64,000 nucleotides of DNA from Candidatus Poribacteria bacterium. GTDB lineage: Bacteria > Poribacteria > WGA-4E > WGA-3G. The DNA lies in the NCBI GenBank assembly GCA_958295945.1, contig OY282386.1:1999371-2063370 (forward strand), written 5' to 3'. Under the pieces are notes generated by a model. The model saw only the letters and a list, made by a program, of their open reading frames with translations, was not told the origin of the DNA and did not search any database. The number at the start of each line of letters is the position of its first letter. Positions within the stretch are counted from its first letter, which is position 1. Below are positions 28,836-46,916 of this stretch, in pieces. The translations under genes and the position numbers were made by a program.

Positions 28836-31028
28836 ATGGAACAAGAAAAAAGTAAAATACTCCAGCAGATTCCAGATAGTAATAGAAACAACATCGTATG
28901 TATTGAGGTAGTTTACAAAACCAAATTAAGTTCGCACTTTTTGCACATTCAAAATATAGCATCAACGAATCCAAGTAAAGTTCACGGACGTGCAATAGGT
29001 TTTTTCATTGCACCTTCTTTGCTTGTTACAAACATACATGTAATAATCTCCGCTAGATCTGTCTCAATAAAACAGTTTGATGTGAAAAGATCAAAAGAAC
29101 CTAAACTGTTTACTATTGAAGGAGTTATAGCCTTTGATGCTATGAATGATTTGGTAGTCTTAAAAGTTTCACAACAATGTGAAAACTATTTTCCTATTGG
29201 CAACAGTAACACCGTCAAACAAAAGGACAGAGTTTTGACCTATACATACGCCGAAGTAAAATATAGGTCTATAGAGAGCACTATTAATTACAGTAGTACT
29301 GATGATGGATGGCACTTTATAAATACACAACTTTCACCATGGGACACTGGTGCACCTATATTAAACAGAAATGGTGAAGTAATTGGTATTGCTAATACAC
29401 TCAGTAAGAAAATGGATGATTCAATTGGTATTACCGGCTATACTTATGTGATTCCTTCAAATACTCTAAACTCAATATTTGAAATTGCAGAGAAAGTTGA
29501 ACCAATAGTTGCATGGAAAAAACGTCCTGTCATCCGTGCTTATATTGAAGATATTCACGCAAATATGAAAATAAAAGAAAATAAATATAAAGAAGCAATA
29601 GTGAACTTTGACACTGTGCTTCACCTGAATCCGAATTTAGTACAGTCTTATGTGACGCGTGGATTTACAAAGTCCATTTTGAATGACTATGAAGGTGCTA
29701 TTTCTGACTGTAATGCTGCTCTTCGACTCAATCGAGGTTTTGTTCAAGCCTATACAAATCGTTTTACGGCAAAGAATAACTTGCAAGACTATGAAGGAGC
29801 TTTGGATGACCTCAATATTTTGCACCAACACTTTTTGGATTCAATTGAACTCTCTCAATTATACGTTCATCGTGCAGGTGTGAAGAATAATCTCGGTGAC
29901 TTTGAAGGAGCAATACATGACTATACACAAGCATTAGAAATGAAAACTGAAGACCAGATGTCTTATTACAATCGTGGGGAAATTAGGAAGGTTCTCGGTG
30001 AAGAAATCATGAACCAGGGGAATATAATTGAAGCACAAAATCTTTATCATGGAGCGATAAAAGATTATACCAAAGTAATACAGTTAACCCCAGATAGAGT
30101 CAATGCCTACTTCAGACGAGGAATTGTCCAACACAATCTTGCGATTTCTTTAGTCAGTCATGAGAAACTAGATGAATCAGCAAATTACTATCAAAAAGCA
30201 ATCAATGATTATACTGAAGTTATCAGATGGAAATATTGGCATTTTACATCATATTATAATCGTGGTCTTGCGAAGTATCAACTTGGGAAGAATGAATCTA
30301 AACGTGGAAATTCAGAGATTGCAAAAGGACACTATAAAGATGCAATAAAAGATTTTGACATATATATCCCACAAAAACGAAAACAACATGTCAATGCATA
30401 CAAAAACAGGGGAAATGTAAAGAATGCTTTAGGACAATTTGTGGATGCTATAGAAGACTATACAAAAACTATACAGTTAGACCCAGAGAATGTTTCAGCA
30501 TACGACAATCGCGGTTATATTAAAACTAATCTGGCTGAATCTAAAGCAGAAACAGGTAATGTTAATAAAGCACAGAAATTATATCTAGACGCATTAGAAG
30601 ATTATAACAAAGCAATTCAGCTAACTCCTGAGAAACCTAAAATTTACAATAGACGAGGAATTGTCCAACACAGACTTGGAAAATCTTTAGTAGATCAAGG
30701 AAATGTTGAAGAAGCACAGAAATATTTTCAAGAAGCGATCGCTGATTATTCTGAAACTATTAGACAATATCCCAAATATGCTGTTGCATATAACAATCGA
30801 GGCCTTACAAAGTATTACATCGGTCTATCTGAAATTGACCTTGGAAATGAAGGAAAAGCAATAGGATACTTTCAAGATGCAATTTTAGATTTAGATAAAA
30901 CAATCACACTAAATCCGAAATATATAAGGGCTTACAACAATCGAGGAAAAGTAAAGAATGCCTTGAATATGCATAAAGAGGCAGAAACCGATTTTTCGAA
31001 AGCAAAGGATTTGGAATCAACGGATTGA
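28836..31028 (+). CDS. Trypsin-like serine-protease domain fused to TPR repeats; altered nucleophile
   Basis: The 730-residue protein begins with a chymotrypsin-fold domain (residues 15-215) and no signal peptide. His68 (LLVTNIHVI) and Asp105 (AMNDLVVLKV) match the catalytic pair. The serine site normally reads GxSGxP, but here it reads WDTGAPILNRNGEVIG, so the nucleophile would be Thr171. From about residue 230 to the end there are about ten TPRs with the pattern AYNNRGxxKxxLGxxxxAIxDYTKxIxLDP. The TPRs probably recruit a target, as in other protease-TPR fusions. It is either a threonine-dependent enzyme or an inactive sensor. Confidence 0.75.
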   Translation: MEQEKSKILQQIPDSNRNNIVCIEVVYKTKLSSHFLHIQNIASTNPSKVHGRAIGFFIAPSLLVTNIHVIISARSVSIKQFDVKRSKEPKLFTIEGVIAFDAMNDLVVLKVSQQCENYFPIGNSNTVKQKDRVLTYTYAEVKYRSIESTINYSSTDDGWHFINTQLSPWDTGAPILNRNGEVIGIANTLSKKMDDSIGITGYTYVIPSNTLNSIFEIAEKVEPIVAWKKRPVIRAYIEDIHANMKIKENKYKEAIVNFDTVLHLNPNLVQSYVTRGFTKSILNDYEGAISDCNAALRLNRGFVQAYTNRFTAKNNLQDYEGALDDLNILHQHFLDSIELSQLYVHRAGVKNNLGDFEGAIHDYTQALEMKTEDQMSYYNRGEIRKVLGEEIMNQGNIIEAQNLYHGAIKDYTKVIQLTPDRVNAYFRRGIVQHNLAISLVSHEKLDESANYYQKAINDYTEVIRWKYWHFTSYYNRGLAKYQLGKNESKRGNSEIAKGHYKDAIKDFDIYIPQKRKQHVNAYKNRGNVKNALGQFVDAIEDYTKTIQLDPENVSAYDNRGYIKTNLAESKAETGNVNKAQKLYLDALEDYNKAIQLTPEKPKIYNRRGIVQHRLGKSLVDQGNVEEAQKYFQEAIADYSETIRQYPKYAVAYNNRGLTKYYIGLSEIDLGNEGKAIGYFQDAILDLDKTITLNPKYIRAYNNRGKVKNALNMHKEAETDFSKAKDLESTD

Positions 31029-33994: not shown

Positions 33995-35056
33995 TTACAA
34001 TGGTAATGTTATTGGCACTCCAGATTGAGATGAACGGTATGCTGCTTCAGCCAATTCTATACCATCTCTCCCAATCTGTCCATGCGTTGTCGGTTCTGCT
34101 TCACCCGCAATACACTGCAACCAATGGTCAATACTCGCGCCTTTTGCAGCGATGCCCCAGTACCGTTGATTCCGTTGTGCTTCTGGTATATTGCGATATG
34201 TATCGTCATCTGGGATGGGTGCTGTGAATTCCTCTGCTGATTGCATATCGTGAGTTTTCCAGCGCAGACCATGACTTATGATAGATGCGGAACCATTGCT
34301 TGTGACCAGACCATTGCCACTATGCCCGATCTGTGCTGCCCAACTCTTCATCATCATACCAACACCACCATTTTTGAAGTGCACAGTTAAAACAGCATTG
34401 TTTTCCACTGCTTTTTCTTCAGTTGGATAAGTGCCACCAAGTGGGACATGACTTGTATATCCGTAGACTGATGTAGCAGGTCCATACAACCACAACCACA
34501 AATCTAAATGATGGATCGCTTGCTCCACAAGCATCCCACCAGATTCCTCCTTCACAAAAAGCCACGGATGTTTTTCAGGTGAAAAGTATCCAACTTGATT
34601 ACTATATGCCATCTGTAAAGTGCCAAGAGTTCCATCCTCAAGCAGTTCTTTCAATTTCCTTTGTCCAGGATCAAACCGCATCATATAGGCGACCATCAAT
34701 AGAACACCCGCATTCTCGGCAGCAGCGACCATTGCATCACCCTCAGCAACATTACAACACATCGGTTTTTCCATGAGGATATGTTTACCTGCTTCAGCGG
34801 CTGCACGTGTAATCTCAAGATGGGGACGCGGATGAACACATACATCAACTGCATCTATGTCTTTTCTATCCAGAAGTTCACGATAAACCGTGTAAGCATC
34901 TGCTTCAAAACGGTCTGCTTGTTCTTTAGCACCTGTCTCATTAATGTCAGCAATTGCAACAATGTCTGCGCGTCGTGTCGGTTCATTGTAGTACGGAGAG
35001 TGAAGGTTACGAAAGATACCACCACATCCAATAATACCGACTCTAATTCTGTCCAT
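33995..35056 (-). CDS. Gfo/Idh/MocA family oxidoreductase
   Basis: The 353-residue protein has an N-terminal Rossmann fold (RVGIIGCGGIFRNLHSPYY) and the EKP signature (MEKPMCCN) that positions the nicotinamide. The C-terminal alpha/beta domain includes EQAIHHLDLWLWL with catalytic-type His residues. The family oxidises or reduces sugars, inositols and related compounds with NAD(P). AAGGAA precedes the ATG. Its ATG is one base after the stop of the GrdB-related gene, so the two are probably cotranslated. Confidence 0.9.
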   Translation of the reverse strand: MDRIRVGIIGCGGIFRNLHSPYYNEPTRRADIVAIADINETGAKEQADRFEADAYTVYRELLDRKDIDAVDVCVHPRPHLEITRAAAEAGKHILMEKPMCCNVAEGDAMVAAAENAGVLLMVAYMMRFDPGQRKLKELLEDGTLGTLQMAYSNQVGYFSPEKHPWLFVKEESGGMLVEQAIHHLDLWLWLYGPATSVYGYTSHVPLGGTYPTEEKAVENNAVLTVHFKNGGVGMMMKSWAAQIGHSGNGLVTSNGSASIISHGLRWKTHDMQSAEEFTAPIPDDDTYRNIPEAQRNQRYWGIAAKGASIDHWLQCIAGEAEPTTHGQIGRDGIELAEAAYRSSQSGVPITLPL

Positions 35057-35057
35057 C

Positions 35058-35792
35058 TTATGTTCCTTTCTGTATACTGTTTCTTAAAATAGGAGGTGTC
35101 CCCGCATCCTGTAAAAGTGCAAGAGTTTCAGCAATTATCGCATGCTGTAATTCTGAATTGTTCGGTTCTCCCAACGGATGTCCAAAACTATATGGCACAT
35201 GCAACGCACGCGGGGGTTTCACCTTCTTCGTGACATCTTCCAAGAGTGTAATTGACACAGTAGATATTCCCACTTCTTCAACAACACGTTGAATCAATCC
35301 TACAGATTGATTGCAAAGTGGTCACACGGGAGTTAAGAATGCAACATCAACACCATCATCTCTAAGCATCCGTGCAACCTCTGGTGCAGTATTCGCAATG
35401 AGATGCTTCGGTCTTGATATTGATCCCATAAAGCTGAAGTGTCTATGATTAAGAGAACCGATTGCTCCTGCATTCTTCAACTCTCTAAAACGATCAATAG
35501 GAAAAACAAGGTTGGCATCTGTCTTTGTATCGGACTTATCGTAGGCAACGCTTTTATGTCCGACCTTTAGTTCATTAGTCTGGATTGTATTTGGAATCTC
35601 GCGGTAGGAACAATCACCGTTTACATAAGGTTGCTGTCCACTGATATAAAAGCCTGCAGTTGTAATGAGAGCAACAGTACATTCATTCAAAGGTTTCTTG
35701 AGCGGCGTGTTTGGAGTCGTGCCATACCGTTTGCCACGATAAAACCGCATAAAGAAACGAAATAACGGTTCAAGTTCACTAATTGATGCCAT
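35058..35792 (-). CDS. GrdB/PrdB-related reductase, predicted UGA-selenocysteine selenoprotein
   Basis: A single reading frame of 244 residues is interrupted only by TGA at 35322-35324. Before it the protein reads DGVDVAFLTPV; after it PLCNQSVGLIQRVVEE, in the same frame, giving TPV-U-PLC (Sec157, Cys160). This UxxC arrangement matches the redox site of the glycine/sarcosine/betaine or D-proline reductase B-type family, where many homologues use Sec. TGA is a normal stop in neighbouring genes, so it is not globally reassigned. A perfect hairpin follows 9 nt downstream. The gene lies 27 bp after the restriction-modification gene and directly before a Gfo/Idh/MocA gene. A nonsense-mutated pseudogene is the alternative. 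Confidence 0.8.
35292..35312 (-). promoter_or_regulatory. Candidate bacterial SECIS hairpin
   Basis: On the coding (minus) strand, 9 nt after the UGA, AAUCAAUC pairs perfectly with GAUUGAUU around the loop UGUAG. The second loop base is G, at +19 from the UGA. Bacterial SECIS elements are known to lie just after the UGA, with an apical loop about 16-37 nt away and G among the first two loop bases. This hairpin fits all three rules. Confidence 0.7.
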
Positions 35793-35819: not shown

Positions 35820-38800
35820 TTACGCTTTATTTTCAAGAGGCCATCCACCGTGTTGTTCCACAGTATTGTCAATTTCTTCCATAACATTGATTGTCTTTCC
35901 AATTGCCCCACAAATATTCCGATAGTGTTGAATTTCATCATACGTCAAAGTTCTCGATTTCCGATCGTCAAGCCATTTTTCGGCAGGCTGGTGTCCACCT
36001 ACACGAAATTCCCAAACATATTGCTGGATTTGTTCAAAATATTGGGTTCGATTGATCCAAACGCGTTGGTCTACTTCTGTCCAGTGAATATCTTCAACTT
36101 TTTGATTGCCGCTTACTGGAAAGACTGGTAGGTTCAGTCCTTCACTTTGAAAGAGTTGTGATTCCACTAATTGTTCTCCTAACAATGCCAATTTTTGAAA
36201 CAGAGATCGGTTAGTTGTCAACGGAATATGTGGGAAATCAATTTTGAGTTGATCTGCATATCTCTTTCTGTATTCTGGGGCATGTAAAACTGCATAGATA
36301 TAGTTAAAGATATCCTCAGGTCCTAATGATATGTCACAGTCTCCTTTTCCATCATGTATGAAACTTAATGTGTCTGTACTACTGTTTTCATAATTTAGAT
36401 GTCGACAGACTTCTTCTATGTATTGATGGGAAAGATTATGTAGTCTTTGTCCACCTTTATCACCAAAACTGTACATAGGAAAAACAACAATTCCACCGCG
36501 TCTGAAGAGATTCAAATTGGCAATTTTTTTGGAGATAGAGACGAGATTCCATATAGTATCCCCAACTGCTTGTCCTGCCCTGCCGACACACATCGCGAGA
36601 TTCTCACCCGCTAGAAGATGACGCATCACTGTTACAGTTCTTCTTGCCACCAATGCGTCATGGTAAAAAATGAATCTTTCATCATAAGGTCGATATAAGA
36701 ATGGTTGAATATGCTCATTAAGGTCTTGTTCTGATCGAAGTGTTTCGCGTGCCTTATCAATATTCCACTCTTTATTCATTCGAATAGGTAATTGCCTACA
36801 GAGCTCATCATTGGATTCTGTTGAATTCCGAAAGAGATTTACCCGTTTAAGTATCGGTTCCTTTTCAAAATCTACCACCATTCTGTCTCTCTTCGTAATA
36901 GTTCCACCATTGTTGAAAGGGAAAATTTTGGTTATTTTCCAACCGCGTTCGTATTCCTCACTTACACTTTCACTATATGGAACAAACAAATAATTAGGAT
37001 ATGATGATGGTGATTCTTTCCACTGGGTTGAGTCAATAGTATTAGTACCAAGCCATTTATATTTATCCTCACGGTTTCCCCATAACTCATAATGGTAAAC
37101 ATTTGCGGTAGACTGATTTTCTGAAGCATTTTTGACAAAGATACCAATGGACACACCTTGTTGAATCTTAAATACATTATCGTCTGGACCACCATCAGGT
37201 GGTTTTTCATTTGTCCGCTTATTTCCATGCAGATCAAGAATATAGATAGAATCAAAAGTATGCATGAGACTTTGTCGCATCCCACGAAACGTGACGTTAT
37301 TGAGATATCCATGATTGGATATAAAGGCAAGGATACCGTATCCTGTTCGTTCAATCCGCCATTGTGCAAAACGAATAAATTTCACATAATCATCGTTTAA
37401 CCATTTTGAATTCCGTTCATCAAGATCTCGACCATTTACCTTAAAGTAATCTTCTGTGGTTATGTTTCCATCAAGTCCCCGCAATAATCCCCTAATCCAT
37501 TTGCCATTGTTGTCAGATTCGCCGAGATACGGAGGATTTTTGATAATTACCATAACAGGCATATCACGTTTTACATTGGCAGCTGATTCTGCTTCCTTTG
37601 CAATTTCGTCAATAAAAATTGGCAACCCAACATCACGATCCCCTGCTTCAAGTGCATCCGTAAGGTAGACATTAAGTCGTTCTCCATCATCCAAATTGTA
37701 ATCAAGTTGTGATAGTTGATGTGTAAGGGTTAAATGACACATCGTATATGGTGCGGGTAGACGTTCAAACCCGTGAAGTCGAGGTAAAAGATGCTGTGAT
37801 ACATACTCTTGCCATGCCCCAGGCATACCACCAGTCATTATGGTGTCATGTATCTGGGCAATCACTGACCGTAGAAATGTTCCAGTACCTACAGCAGGAT
37901 CAAGGATTTGTACCTTTGGAAGCTGATTTTCGTTATGTTTGACAGTCCCTGTATGGGCAAGTCCATCAGATAGATTAAACTGATCAATTAAAACTTGATC
38001 AACGCTACGAACGATATAGGAAACAACGGGTTCGGGTGTATAATAGACACCTGATTTTTTTCGAATTTCAGGATCGTAGTCACTGAGAAAGTCTTCATAG
38101 AAATGTATAATTGGTCCCGCTTGTCTACCATCAGCCCCAAATTCGGAAATGATACTTTCCATATCAGCAAATTCAAGTAATTCAGCAATTGGATCGATAA
38201 TCCAATTTAGTTTCGTTAATCGTTGAATAGATGTCCAGAACAGTTGTGAGAGAAAGGGATTTATTTCTTCAAGGATATCCATTGCGCGAGTGCGATCAAA
38301 GTTACCGTGTGTATGGTAACAGCGTGCAGCGAATAGGCTATATGTAATCGTCTGAGCCATCATATCTGAGAATTTCGCTTTAGGAAGATCGGCAATGAGA
38401 TGTTCACGAAACGCTTCCAATCGATTCTTGAGTTCGTTATTTGATGAATCCTTCAGCAGGTTGGAAATTGCGGCCTTGAGCAATTGTGCTTTTCCACTTA
38501 GCATCCGTGCTAAGTCTGAAGCTTTACCAATTCTGATAGGTTCTGATCCAAAAAATGCTGACAAAAAAGTAGAGATTTCAGAGTCATCATTGCATTGATT
38601 TGTCAAACCTTGGTTGGCATCACCCTTGGCATCATCTATATCTGAAATTCGGACAGAGAAACAATTTTCACCTGAACTATATAGGCGAAATTCTATATAA
38701 TCGGTTAATATAAGATTTGAAAACGCTTTACGATACCGTTGAAGTTGTTCAGATTTTTCTTCATTACCTAAGTCAGTTCCAGGAGGTTTTGTTTCAATCC

Positions 38801-39014
38801 ATCCTAATGACATATCACCTTGTTTCACAAGGAAATCTGGGGCATTACCTGCAATACGTTTGGGTTCATTTGTGATGTTGTAATCTGCTGAAGTAGAGAA
38901 ATCCTGACACCATTCACCCAAAAACTGTTGAAGAAGTAGACGATAGCTATGCTCAGTTGCATCCCCAGATTGTAATAAGGTTTCAATTCCATCAAGATAT
39001 TCTGTAATTGTCAT
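35820..39014 (-). CDS. Single-chain restriction-modification enzyme (N6-adenine methylase plus nuclease)
   Basis: The start at 39014 (MTITEYLDG) is chosen for AAGGA 6 nt upstream; the longer frame would overlap the upstream gene. The 1064-residue protein begins with a nuclease-like block, Pro59-Asp60 then Glu74-Thr-Lys76 (PDFLVKQ ... IETKPPG), a PD-(D/E)xK signature. The methylase has motif I ILDPAVGTGTFL and motif IV NPPYLGESDN. A long C-terminal half resembles the specificity region of type ISP/IIG enzymes (NLAMCVGRAGQ, HDGKGDCDISLGPED). No helicase is seen, so it probably acts alone on DNA. It is set oddly between two metabolic genes. Confidence 0.88.
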   Translation of the reverse strand: MTITEYLDGIETLLQSGDATEHSYRLLLQQFLGEWCQDFSTSADYNITNEPKRIAGNAPDFLVKQGDMSLGWIETKPPGTDLGNEEKSEQLQRYRKAFSNLILTDYIEFRLYSSGENCFSVRISDIDDAKGDANQGLTNQCNDDSEISTFLSAFFGSEPIRIGKASDLARMLSGKAQLLKAAISNLLKDSSNNELKNRLEAFREHLIADLPKAKFSDMMAQTITYSLFAARCYHTHGNFDRTRAMDILEEINPFLSQLFWTSIQRLTKLNWIIDPIAELLEFADMESIISEFGADGRQAGPIIHFYEDFLSDYDPEIRKKSGVYYTPEPVVSYIVRSVDQVLIDQFNLSDGLAHTGTVKHNENQLPKVQILDPAVGTGTFLRSVIAQIHDTIMTGGMPGAWQEYVSQHLLPRLHGFERLPAPYTMCHLTLTHQLSQLDYNLDDGERLNVYLTDALEAGDRDVGLPIFIDEIAKEAESAANVKRDMPVMVIIKNPPYLGESDNNGKWIRGLLRGLDGNITTEDYFKVNGRDLDERNSKWLNDDYVKFIRFAQWRIERTGYGILAFISNHGYLNNVTFRGMRQSLMHTFDSIYILDLHGNKRTNEKPPDGGPDDNVFKIQQGVSIGIFVKNASENQSTANVYHYELWGNREDKYKWLGTNTIDSTQWKESPSSYPNYLFVPYSESVSEEYERGWKITKIFPFNNGGTITKRDRMVVDFEKEPILKRVNLFRNSTESNDELCRQLPIRMNKEWNIDKARETLRSEQDLNEHIQPFLYRPYDERFIFYHDALVARRTVTVMRHLLAGENLAMCVGRAGQAVGDTIWNLVSISKKIANLNLFRRGGIVVFPMYSFGDKGGQRLHNLSHQYIEEVCRHLNYENSSTDTLSFIHDGKGDCDISLGPEDIFNYIYAVLHAPEYRKRYADQLKIDFPHIPLTTNRSLFQKLALLGEQLVESQLFQSEGLNLPVFPVSGNQKVEDIHWTEVDQRVWINRTQYFEQIQQYVWEFRVGGHQPAEKWLDDRKSRTLTYDEIQHYRNICGAIGKTINVMEEIDNTVEQHGGWPLENKA

Positions 39015-39021
39015 AATTTCC

Positions 39022-40047
39022 TTACCCATTCGCAAAAATAAGCCGTTTCCTGTTCTGACAGGGAAGTTCAATCGTCTGTCCCGTGATACCACTCTCAATC
39101 GAAGCAAAACCGATTTCATTCACAGCAGTATAATCATCGCGTGAACAATCAGGCGGTTCACCACCATCAAGATAATCAGTTATCTGTTTATACGCAATCT
39201 TAAATGGACTTGCATTGTCAGGCAAATCAAGTGTGTCATTATCTACCATCTTACCACCCTTCTGAACTGTTGCACCACTATAGAAACCAGTCTGCACTGA
39301 ACCTTCACTTCCAAGTACATCCACTGAAAATCCACCTTTAACGCCATGTTTTCCAACATGATAACCGATAGCACCGTTTTCAAATTTGATAGTTGCACCG
39401 ACAATTGCAGGCTCTGGTTCATAAGGTTCTGGCACATCACCACCACCTTCTACATAGCCTGTGACTGAAACAGGGTCATATCCAGCAAACTGACAAATCA
39501 TATCAGTAGTATGAATTGAGAAGGACAGCACACCACCACCACAATACCCGATGACACTCTGCACTTCTCCAATCAACCCGTCCTTAACCAACGATTGTAA
39601 GCGGATGAGATGCGGTCCCCAATGTCTTGTATAGTCAACCACAATGGGAACACCTTTCGCATCAGCACCAGCAGTCATGGTGTCTACCTCTTCAAGTGAA
39701 CAGCCAGCAGGTTTCTCAAGAAAAATCGCTTTGATGTCTGCCCTCAAAACATTCTGCATTACCTCAAAATGGTGTGGACCACGCACACAGACAGCAACAA
39801 TATCTAACTTCTCACTTTCTAACAATTGCACATCTGTTTCATAATAATTGATTGAATTGTCTGGGAACCCTGGCCCCCAAGTCCTTTTGAAGTCTGCTTG
39901 ACGGTCAGTAGACATATCTGCAACTGCAACTAACTCTGTAGTTTCACACAGACGAATACCACCAGCATGACAATATGGATATTCATCACTCGGTGTTGAA
40001 TAACGAGCAGCGATACTACCTAATCCAATAATTCCGACACGATACAT
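39022..40047 (-). CDS. Gfo/Idh/MocA family oxidoreductase
   Basis: The 341-residue protein starts RVGIIGLGSIAARYS (Rossmann fold) and has the EKP motif (FLEKPAGCS). Its C-terminal domain is a beta-sheet substrate domain with VIGYCGGGVLSFSIHTTDMI. It belongs to the family of NAD(P)-dependent sugar and polyol dehydrogenases; the substrate is unknown. AAGGAG precedes the ATG. The restriction-modification gene starts 7 nt after its stop, so the four genes from 40047 down to 33995 could form one transcript. Confidence 0.9.
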   Translation of the reverse strand: MYRVGIIGLGSIAARYSTPSDEYPYCHAGGIRLCETTELVAVADMSTDRQADFKRTWGPGFPDNSINYYETDVQLLESEKLDIVAVCVRGPHHFEVMQNVLRADIKAIFLEKPAGCSLEEVDTMTAGADAKGVPIVVDYTRHWGPHLIRLQSLVKDGLIGEVQSVIGYCGGGVLSFSIHTTDMICQFAGYDPVSVTGYVEGGGDVPEPYEPEPAIVGATIKFENGAIGYHVGKHGVKGGFSVDVLGSEGSVQTGFYSGATVQKGGKMVDNDTLDLPDNASPFKIAYKQITDYLDGGEPPDCSRDDYTAVNEIGFASIESGITGQTIELPCQNRKRLIFANG

Positions 40048-45527: not shown

Positions 45528-46916
45528 ATGTTATATTATGGACTTGTATGCTCAGTAAAAAGTGAAGATAGGCAGGCATTACGAGAGGGGATGCGGCTTT
45601 TAGCAAACACCGCTCATAAACACAATATACCAATTACTTGGTCATTAACTGCTGAATTAACACAAACTTTTGCTAACGATTTGACAGAATGGCACAATGA
45701 ATACAGTGACGAACCTTTGTTGATGCTGGATATTACATCATTATGGAAAGAAGGATGGTATTCAATTACTGAACAATCTGATTCAGGAGAAGAAATTGAC
45801 GCTGAAAACATAAATACGTTGTACGATTCTGCAACAGCAAACTCAATTGCTGAACACCTCGTAAAAATGAGAGAATCTGTACCGAAATATATCAAATCTG
45901 AATGGAAGAAATTTGAGAGTGCGTTGGATTGGACAGTGCCGAATAACGCTGGAGCAGATTGGAAAAATCCTGTGTTAGTCCAAGCATTGGAAAAGGAAGG
46001 TTTTCGCGGTCTATGGGGATATCGTTGGGATGAACGAAACTCCATAGCTGAGGCAGATCGAGGGTGTCCTTTCGGTTTCTTTTATCCTTCTGCAGAACAA
46101 CATAACTTCAGCACACCTTCTGCGGGAAGTATCGCAGGTATACCTTACAATACTGCAGCACACATTCAGAAGGAGCAACACAATCTTAGATATTCACTCA
46201 TTAACGATACACTACATCAGCACATAAATCTATATCTGGAAAATGATAGTTGGAATCGGTGGTTCTGTTATATTGAACATATCAATGTTATGGATGTCGT
46301 ACAATTAGGTAAAGAAACATTAGGAAAACTTGATGCTTATTTAGAATTCATTTCAACGAATGAAACCATTAAGTTATTACCGTTATCAGACATAATTGAC
46401 GACTATTGGACAAATTGTCAGATGACAGAACCGACTCATATTGTCGTTAATCCAATAGCTTCAAACTCTGAATCTGATATTACACCAACAGAAAATTCCG
46501 AGATACTTAATGAAAAGATAAAAGAATTCAAATATTACGATGCCGAATGCCAATGTTCGTTTGTTGAAGGTACGATGGAACCTGTTGAGATGAATAATTA
46601 TATCTCACCACCTGTTATAGATAATATCGGTCTCGGCGGTTCAGACCACAGTTTTTCAAATTATGGTGTTGAATACCATTTACCAAAAGTAACGAATTAC
46701 CAACCAATAAGGAAACGTTCAAAATTACATATTAATTTCACGATAGAGTCAACAAAAGCAATGCCTTATGCCGTTGCTGTCTGGGGAAACCACCTTGGCT
46801 TACAGTTAACTGAGTCAAACGCCAAAGAAGTAAAATGGATAGATAAACATTTGCTTTTCTTACGACTATCATTAGAAAAAGGTGAAAACGAGTTTGAGAT
46901 CATCCTGTCAATATGA
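45528..46916 (+). CDS. Unrecognised protein, possible polysaccharide-deacetylase-like barrel
   Basis: The 462-residue protein has no signal peptide. Its first 300 residues alternate strands and helices in the manner of a TIM-like or NodB-like barrel (HNIPITWSLTAEL, LLMLDITSLWKEGWY, GFRGLWGYRWDE, WFCYIEHINVMD). The last 120 residues are beta-rich (INFTIESTKAMPYAVAVWG). I do not recognise a family. It starts 8 nt after the aldolase gene, so the two are probably cotranscribed and act in one pathway. Confidence 0.55.
   Translation: MLYYGLVCSVKSEDRQALREGMRLLANTAHKHNIPITWSLTAELTQTFANDLTEWHNEYSDEPLLMLDITSLWKEGWYSITEQSDSGEEIDAENINTLYDSATANSIAEHLVKMRESVPKYIKSEWKKFESALDWTVPNNAGADWKNPVLVQALEKEGFRGLWGYRWDERNSIAEADRGCPFGFFYPSAEQHNFSTPSAGSIAGIPYNTAAHIQKEQHNLRYSLINDTLHQHINLYLENDSWNRWFCYIEHINVMDVVQLGKETLGKLDAYLEFISTNETIKLLPLSDIIDDYWTNCQMTEPTHIVVNPIASNSESDITPTENSEILNEKIKEFKYYDAECQCSFVEGTMEPVEMNNYISPPVIDNIGLGGSDHSFSNYGVEYHLPKVTNYQPIRKRSKLHINFTIESTKAMPYAVAVWGNHLGLQLTESNAKEVKWIDKHLLFLRLSLEKGENEFEIILSI

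Follow-up and report, generated by a model that had tools for sequence, protein, structure and literature searches.

A predicted PrdB-like UxxC selenoprotein gene and its candidate SECIS hairpin in Candidatus Poribacteria

In a genome of Candidatus Poribacteria, we identified a gene that, judged from its sequence, is predicted with high confidence to be a functional selenoprotein gene (35792-35058 of the window, by which we mean the whole 64,000-nucleotide stretch of DNA analysed here). The reading draws on observed features of the frame, its conservation, the selection acting on it, the machinery genes, hairpin covariation, family membership and neighbouring genes, from which we infer selenocysteine (Sec) insertion at the UGA at 35324-35322, a redox cycle and a partner. 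Poribacteria, a candidate phylum, are known chiefly from marine sponges. The host genome is a single contig of 5.34 Mb, 95.5% complete, and the nearest named relatives of the protein come from Candidatus Poribacteria MAGs (83% and 71% identity over the protein). Our literature search found no paper combining 'Poribacteria' and 'selenoprotein', and selA and selB have been reported as frequent among bins of sponge symbionts (PMC5649159); the gene described here points to the use of selenocysteine by Poribacteria. Its features are:

35058..35792, minus strand: PrdB-like selenoprotein gene of the UxxC type, ending in TAA; its product has 244 aa when the TGA is decoded as Sec
35322..35324, minus strand: in-frame UGA codon (Sec157), with Sec or Cys in the aligned column of all homologues read
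35292..35312, minus strand: covarying hairpin of the bacterial SECIS type, with 8 bp in the stem, UGUAG in the loop and 17 nt separating the UGA from the loop

The gene runs from an ATG at 35792 to the TAA at 35058, and frame 0 is open on either side of the TGA at 35324-35322. The joined product has 244 residues with Sec (U) at position 157, in the motif AFLTPV-U-PLCNQSV, whose redox centre UxxC consists of Sec157-P-L-Cys160. This bears out the preliminary description, which had taken two ORFs to be one in-register gene. Standard gene callers split or truncate this PrdB-like gene, which is widespread in Poribacteria, and reading it as a selenoprotein corrects it. In only three cases in the window does a TGA have at least 120 open codons ahead of it and at least 60 behind it in the same frame, and of these only the selenoprotein TGA has a hairpin. 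The other two, both lacking one, were rejected as Sec sites: TGA 25749 (window 26520-25101, minus strand) is an ordinary boundary between a HAD-type hydrolase gene and the thioredoxin-like gene that follows it in one frame, and the other terminates a WD40-repeat ORF, with an open stretch behind it that looks unrelated.

Conservation of the site extends throughout the phylum and beyond it. The gene is present in 68 of 85 poribacterial genomes, almost always with one in-frame TGA, and every match spanning the site in these 68 genomes contains a TGA. Base-by-base reading found TGA at the site in 36 of 36 poribacterial copies (30 from the same family and 6 more distant), and relatives in Acidobacteriota (Pyrinomonadaceae) and Gammaproteobacteria have it at the same position. 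The aligned column holds Sec in the PrdB of Terrisporobacter, Ligilactobacillus, Peptoclostridium, Acetoanaerobium and E. raffinosus, and Cys in Enterococcus gilvus PrdB, Paraclostridium, Roseomonas and Haematobacter; the earlier expectation of Sec or Cys at residue 157 held for all homologues read. With a pN/pS of 0.18 past the TGA and 0.28 ahead of it, purifying selection past the TGA is at least as strong as that ahead of it. One copy, in genome G054 (L109 5912-6580), has a second in-frame TGA (LPID-U-LAEL, where the others have Arg), which a point mutation, an error in the assembly or incipient decay might explain. Gammaproteobacterial relatives (L054 4905-6122 and L055 103-1314) are extended at the C-terminus by about 160 residues, and the L054 gene has a molybdopterin oxidoreductase gene immediately upstream of it.

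The preliminary description had proposed a search for the Sec machinery, and all four genes were found in the host genome: selA (612 bits), selB (362 bits), selD (361 bits) and, adjoining selB, a tRNA-Sec gene (selC) with anticodon TCA that scored 78 bits, over the cut-off. The selD of the host (L019, G000:C1:1975016-1975942) likewise reads as a selenoprotein gene, its in-frame TGA lying in the motif CAG-U-ASK. Across the phylum, selA was detected in 63 of 68 genomes bearing the PrdB-like gene and in 10 of 17 lacking it (Fisher p = 0.0017, uncorrected for kinship or completeness). In the five gene-bearing genomes where no selA was found, incomplete assembly may be the cause.

The hairpin, AAUCAAUC-UGUAG-GAUUGAUU at 35312-35292, begins 9 nt past the TGA and comprises a perfect 8-bp stem with a G at +19, the second loop position, exactly as had been described from the sequence alone. 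The published bacterial SECIS model asks for a loop of 3-9 nt, a stem of 4-16 bp, a G in the first two loop positions and a spacing of 16-37 nt (PMC13188914), and the observed stem, 5-nt loop, second-position G and 17-nt spacing agree with it. Counting both strands, the window has 2,890 TGA triplets, of which 9 are followed by a hairpin passing this rule. Among 27 distinct sequences, 95.8% of the cells in the 7-bp core stem are paired, and two-sided changes occur in 5 of the 7 counted stem pairs, although part of this covariation stems from three distant sequences in which amino acids changed too. None of 500 shuffles matched the covariation, and the pairing was lost when the partner was shifted by 1-3 columns. 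Most of the loops among relatives read UGUAG or CGUCG, in keeping with the published pattern N-G-[G/U]-N-N (PMC13188914). Folding energy alone is unexceptional (z = -1.5), and it is the covariation, not the energy, that counts as evidence for the hairpin. Synonymous diversity along the gene is minimal at the hairpin, where AAT, GGA and TTG are nearly fixed, and a synonymous-codon test went in the expected direction with a borderline p = 0.052; low codon diversity here is a weak but concordant sign of a SECIS. The Rfam SECIS models gave no match at the gene, but SECIS_1 matched no control genome either, so its silence is uninformative.

Could the TGA simply be a stop, leaving a 156-residue truncated protein, a pseudogene or a product of sequencing error? 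The ORF does mechanically end there, but the TGA recurs in independently assembled poribacterial genomes (the 30 same-family copies and the 6 others) and in other phyla, the sequence past it is under purifying selection, and downstream of it frames +1 and +2 have several stops whereas frame 0 has none. We consider a true stop to have practically no chance of being correct; at the level of sequence, conservation effectively refutes it. Nor is there any real prospect that this genome has reassigned UGA to one of the standard amino acids, an idea that has nothing in its support except the in-frame TGA. It had been claimed beforehand that TGA is a normal stop in the coupled neighbours and that the code is therefore unchanged. 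The first part failed, as the direct neighbours end in TAA, but the second stands: TGA terminates other genes in the window (28836-31028 and 45528-46916), and in several relatives this same selenoprotein gene has TGA as its final stop as well as inside the frame, so that a single gene uses the codon in both senses. Together with a dedicated tRNA-Sec and full Sec machinery, this effectively refutes reassignment.

A different alternative accepts the Sec but takes the protein for a true D-proline reductase PrdB, or the B subunit of a glycine/betaine reductase, acting in Stickland-type amino acid reduction. In its favour, TIGR04483 PrdB is the best NCBIfam match (174.1 bits over 29-229), Pfam GRDB (PF07355) is matched at 36.6 bits against a cut-off of 22 (profile positions 218-345 of 347), and the aligned column holds Sec. 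However, the PrdB score lies below the equivalog cut-off of 300, and where PrdB has the motifs FMGGGG and TAGUGTCH, this protein reads FMGSI and TPVUPLCN. In a 25-row tree, whose rooting is arbitrary and whose deepest split is weak, seven Firmicutes PrdB-type rows form a separate clade (support 100/99) that excludes the window protein, which groups with other Poribacteria, Pyrinomonadaceae and Gammaproteobacteria; two distant class-mates (L109 and L110), with an intermediate motif TPA-U-G[IL]CH, fall elsewhere. Nor were partner subunits found: PrdA (TIGR04480) and GrdA both went unmatched in the host genome. As both searches ran without a positive control, we added one for PF09338 (Gly_reductase), the domain of the PrdA/GrdE pyruvoyl partner, which had no match in 7 poribacterial genomes and was present in 3 of 3 control records, these being three that carry prd genes. 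We therefore regard a true reductase subunit as very unlikely. The original label 'GrdB/PrdB-related' is correct at the superfamily level, where the Pfam match exceeds its cut-off, but should not be taken to mean a subunit of glycine or proline reductase, since the searches turned up no partner.

The surroundings of the gene offer some hints of its role. The neighbouring genes in the window are:

33995..35056, minus strand: Gfo/Idh/MocA NAD-binding oxidoreductase (PF01408, PF02894), beginning 1 nt past the selenoprotein stop
35820..39017, minus strand: Type ISP-like restriction-modification gene (PF18135, PF02384), separating the selenoprotein gene from the dehydrogenase upstream
39022..40047, minus strand: second Gfo/Idh/MocA oxidoreductase (PF01408), upstream member of the cluster

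In same-family relatives the order Gfo/Idh, selenoprotein, Gfo/Idh is conserved on one strand, and in most of these genomes the selenoprotein gene starts about 17 nt past the first (upstream) dehydrogenase. The restriction-modification gene is absent from the locus in most relatives and present in the window, G016 and G082; it is probably an insertion and not part of the system. The same arrangement is found at L100 2731-5964 and L111 2789-6025, which with the window makes three genomes in two genera, consistent with a site inside the operon where insertion has recurred or been inherited. The dehydrogenase neighbourhood is limited to one family, and relatives in other families have other neighbours, including in family f4 a divergent Ldh_2 dehydrogenase. 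Kept in one family and different in f4, the neighbourhood hints at a dehydrogenase-linked role, short of proof.

The predicted structure (pLDDT 82.6, pTM 0.86) has an alpha/beta fold in which the UxxC is flanked by a strand (150-154) and a helix (160-173), a position commonly taken by redox motifs. Among solved structures, no relative was found by sequence, and none by fold (Foldseek best E 0.017). In the mechanism we propose, the ribosome would arrive at the UGA at 35324-35322, SelB bound to the hairpin just downstream would deliver Sec-tRNA-Sec, and translation would yield the full-length protein with its UxxC redox centre, a single-domain homologue of the PrdB/GrdB selenoprotein subunit of D-proline and glycine reductases. 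A selenol-dependent reductase cycle could then pass through a selenenyl-sulfide between Sec157 and Cys160. As neither a pyruvoyl partner (PrdA/GrdE type) nor GrdA was found, the protein would most likely act by itself or together with a thiol donor, for example thioredoxin, and its substrate may be tied to the two adjoining Gfo/Idh dehydrogenases. We lean slightly towards a stand-alone UxxC selenol oxidoreductase (reductase) as the predicted role. It is about an even bet that the gene represents a Sec-dependent 'PVUPxC' subfamily of the GrdB/PrdB superfamily that has no pyruvoyl subunit, carries out a novel reduction and is tied to Gfo/Idh enzymes in Poribacteria. If such a pyruvoyl-free subfamily exists, many environmental 'proline reductase PrdB' annotations would misname the activity.

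Comparison with known systems places the protein among several related groups. The D-proline reductase PrdB of Terrisporobacter, Ligilactobacillus, Enterococcus and Acetoanaerobium shares about 36-42% identity over about 200 residues, a similar length and Sec (or Cys) at the same site, but the poribacterial protein lacks the prdA/prdC/prdD operon, belongs to a separate clade, scores below the equivalog cut-off and differs in the motifs around Sec and at the FMGGGG loop. To GrdB/GrdF/GrdH it is homologous over the C-terminal half of a roughly 430-residue protein, with the UxxC in common; it has no N-terminal half, GrdA or GrdE-type partner, and the third Cys of the GrdB UxxCxxC is absent (UPLCNQS). 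The alphaproteobacterial 'glycine/sarcosine/betaine reductase selenoprotein B family protein' of Roseomonas and Haematobacter belongs to the same family and also stands alone, with no reductase partners beside it, yet has Cys instead of Sec, a C-terminal extension and about 32% identity to the poribacterial protein. Marine 'PrdB' UxxC selenoproteins (pfam07355) have been reported since 2005 in the Sargasso Sea and GOS surveys, where, with 42 and 235 Sec sequences, they are among the commonest selenoprotein families (PMC1088965, PMC2398784). Pfam family, UxxC and marine setting are shared with these, a likeness by description and not by sequence alignment, so the poribacterial protein adds to a known kind. 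The survey sequences are mostly unassigned metagenome sequences, whereas the gene described here is placed in a phylum with its context. What is new is this phylum assignment with wide conservation, the gene context and the evidence against a proline reductase subunit. The finding cautions against taking the abundant marine 'PrdB' genes for proline reductases as a matter of course.
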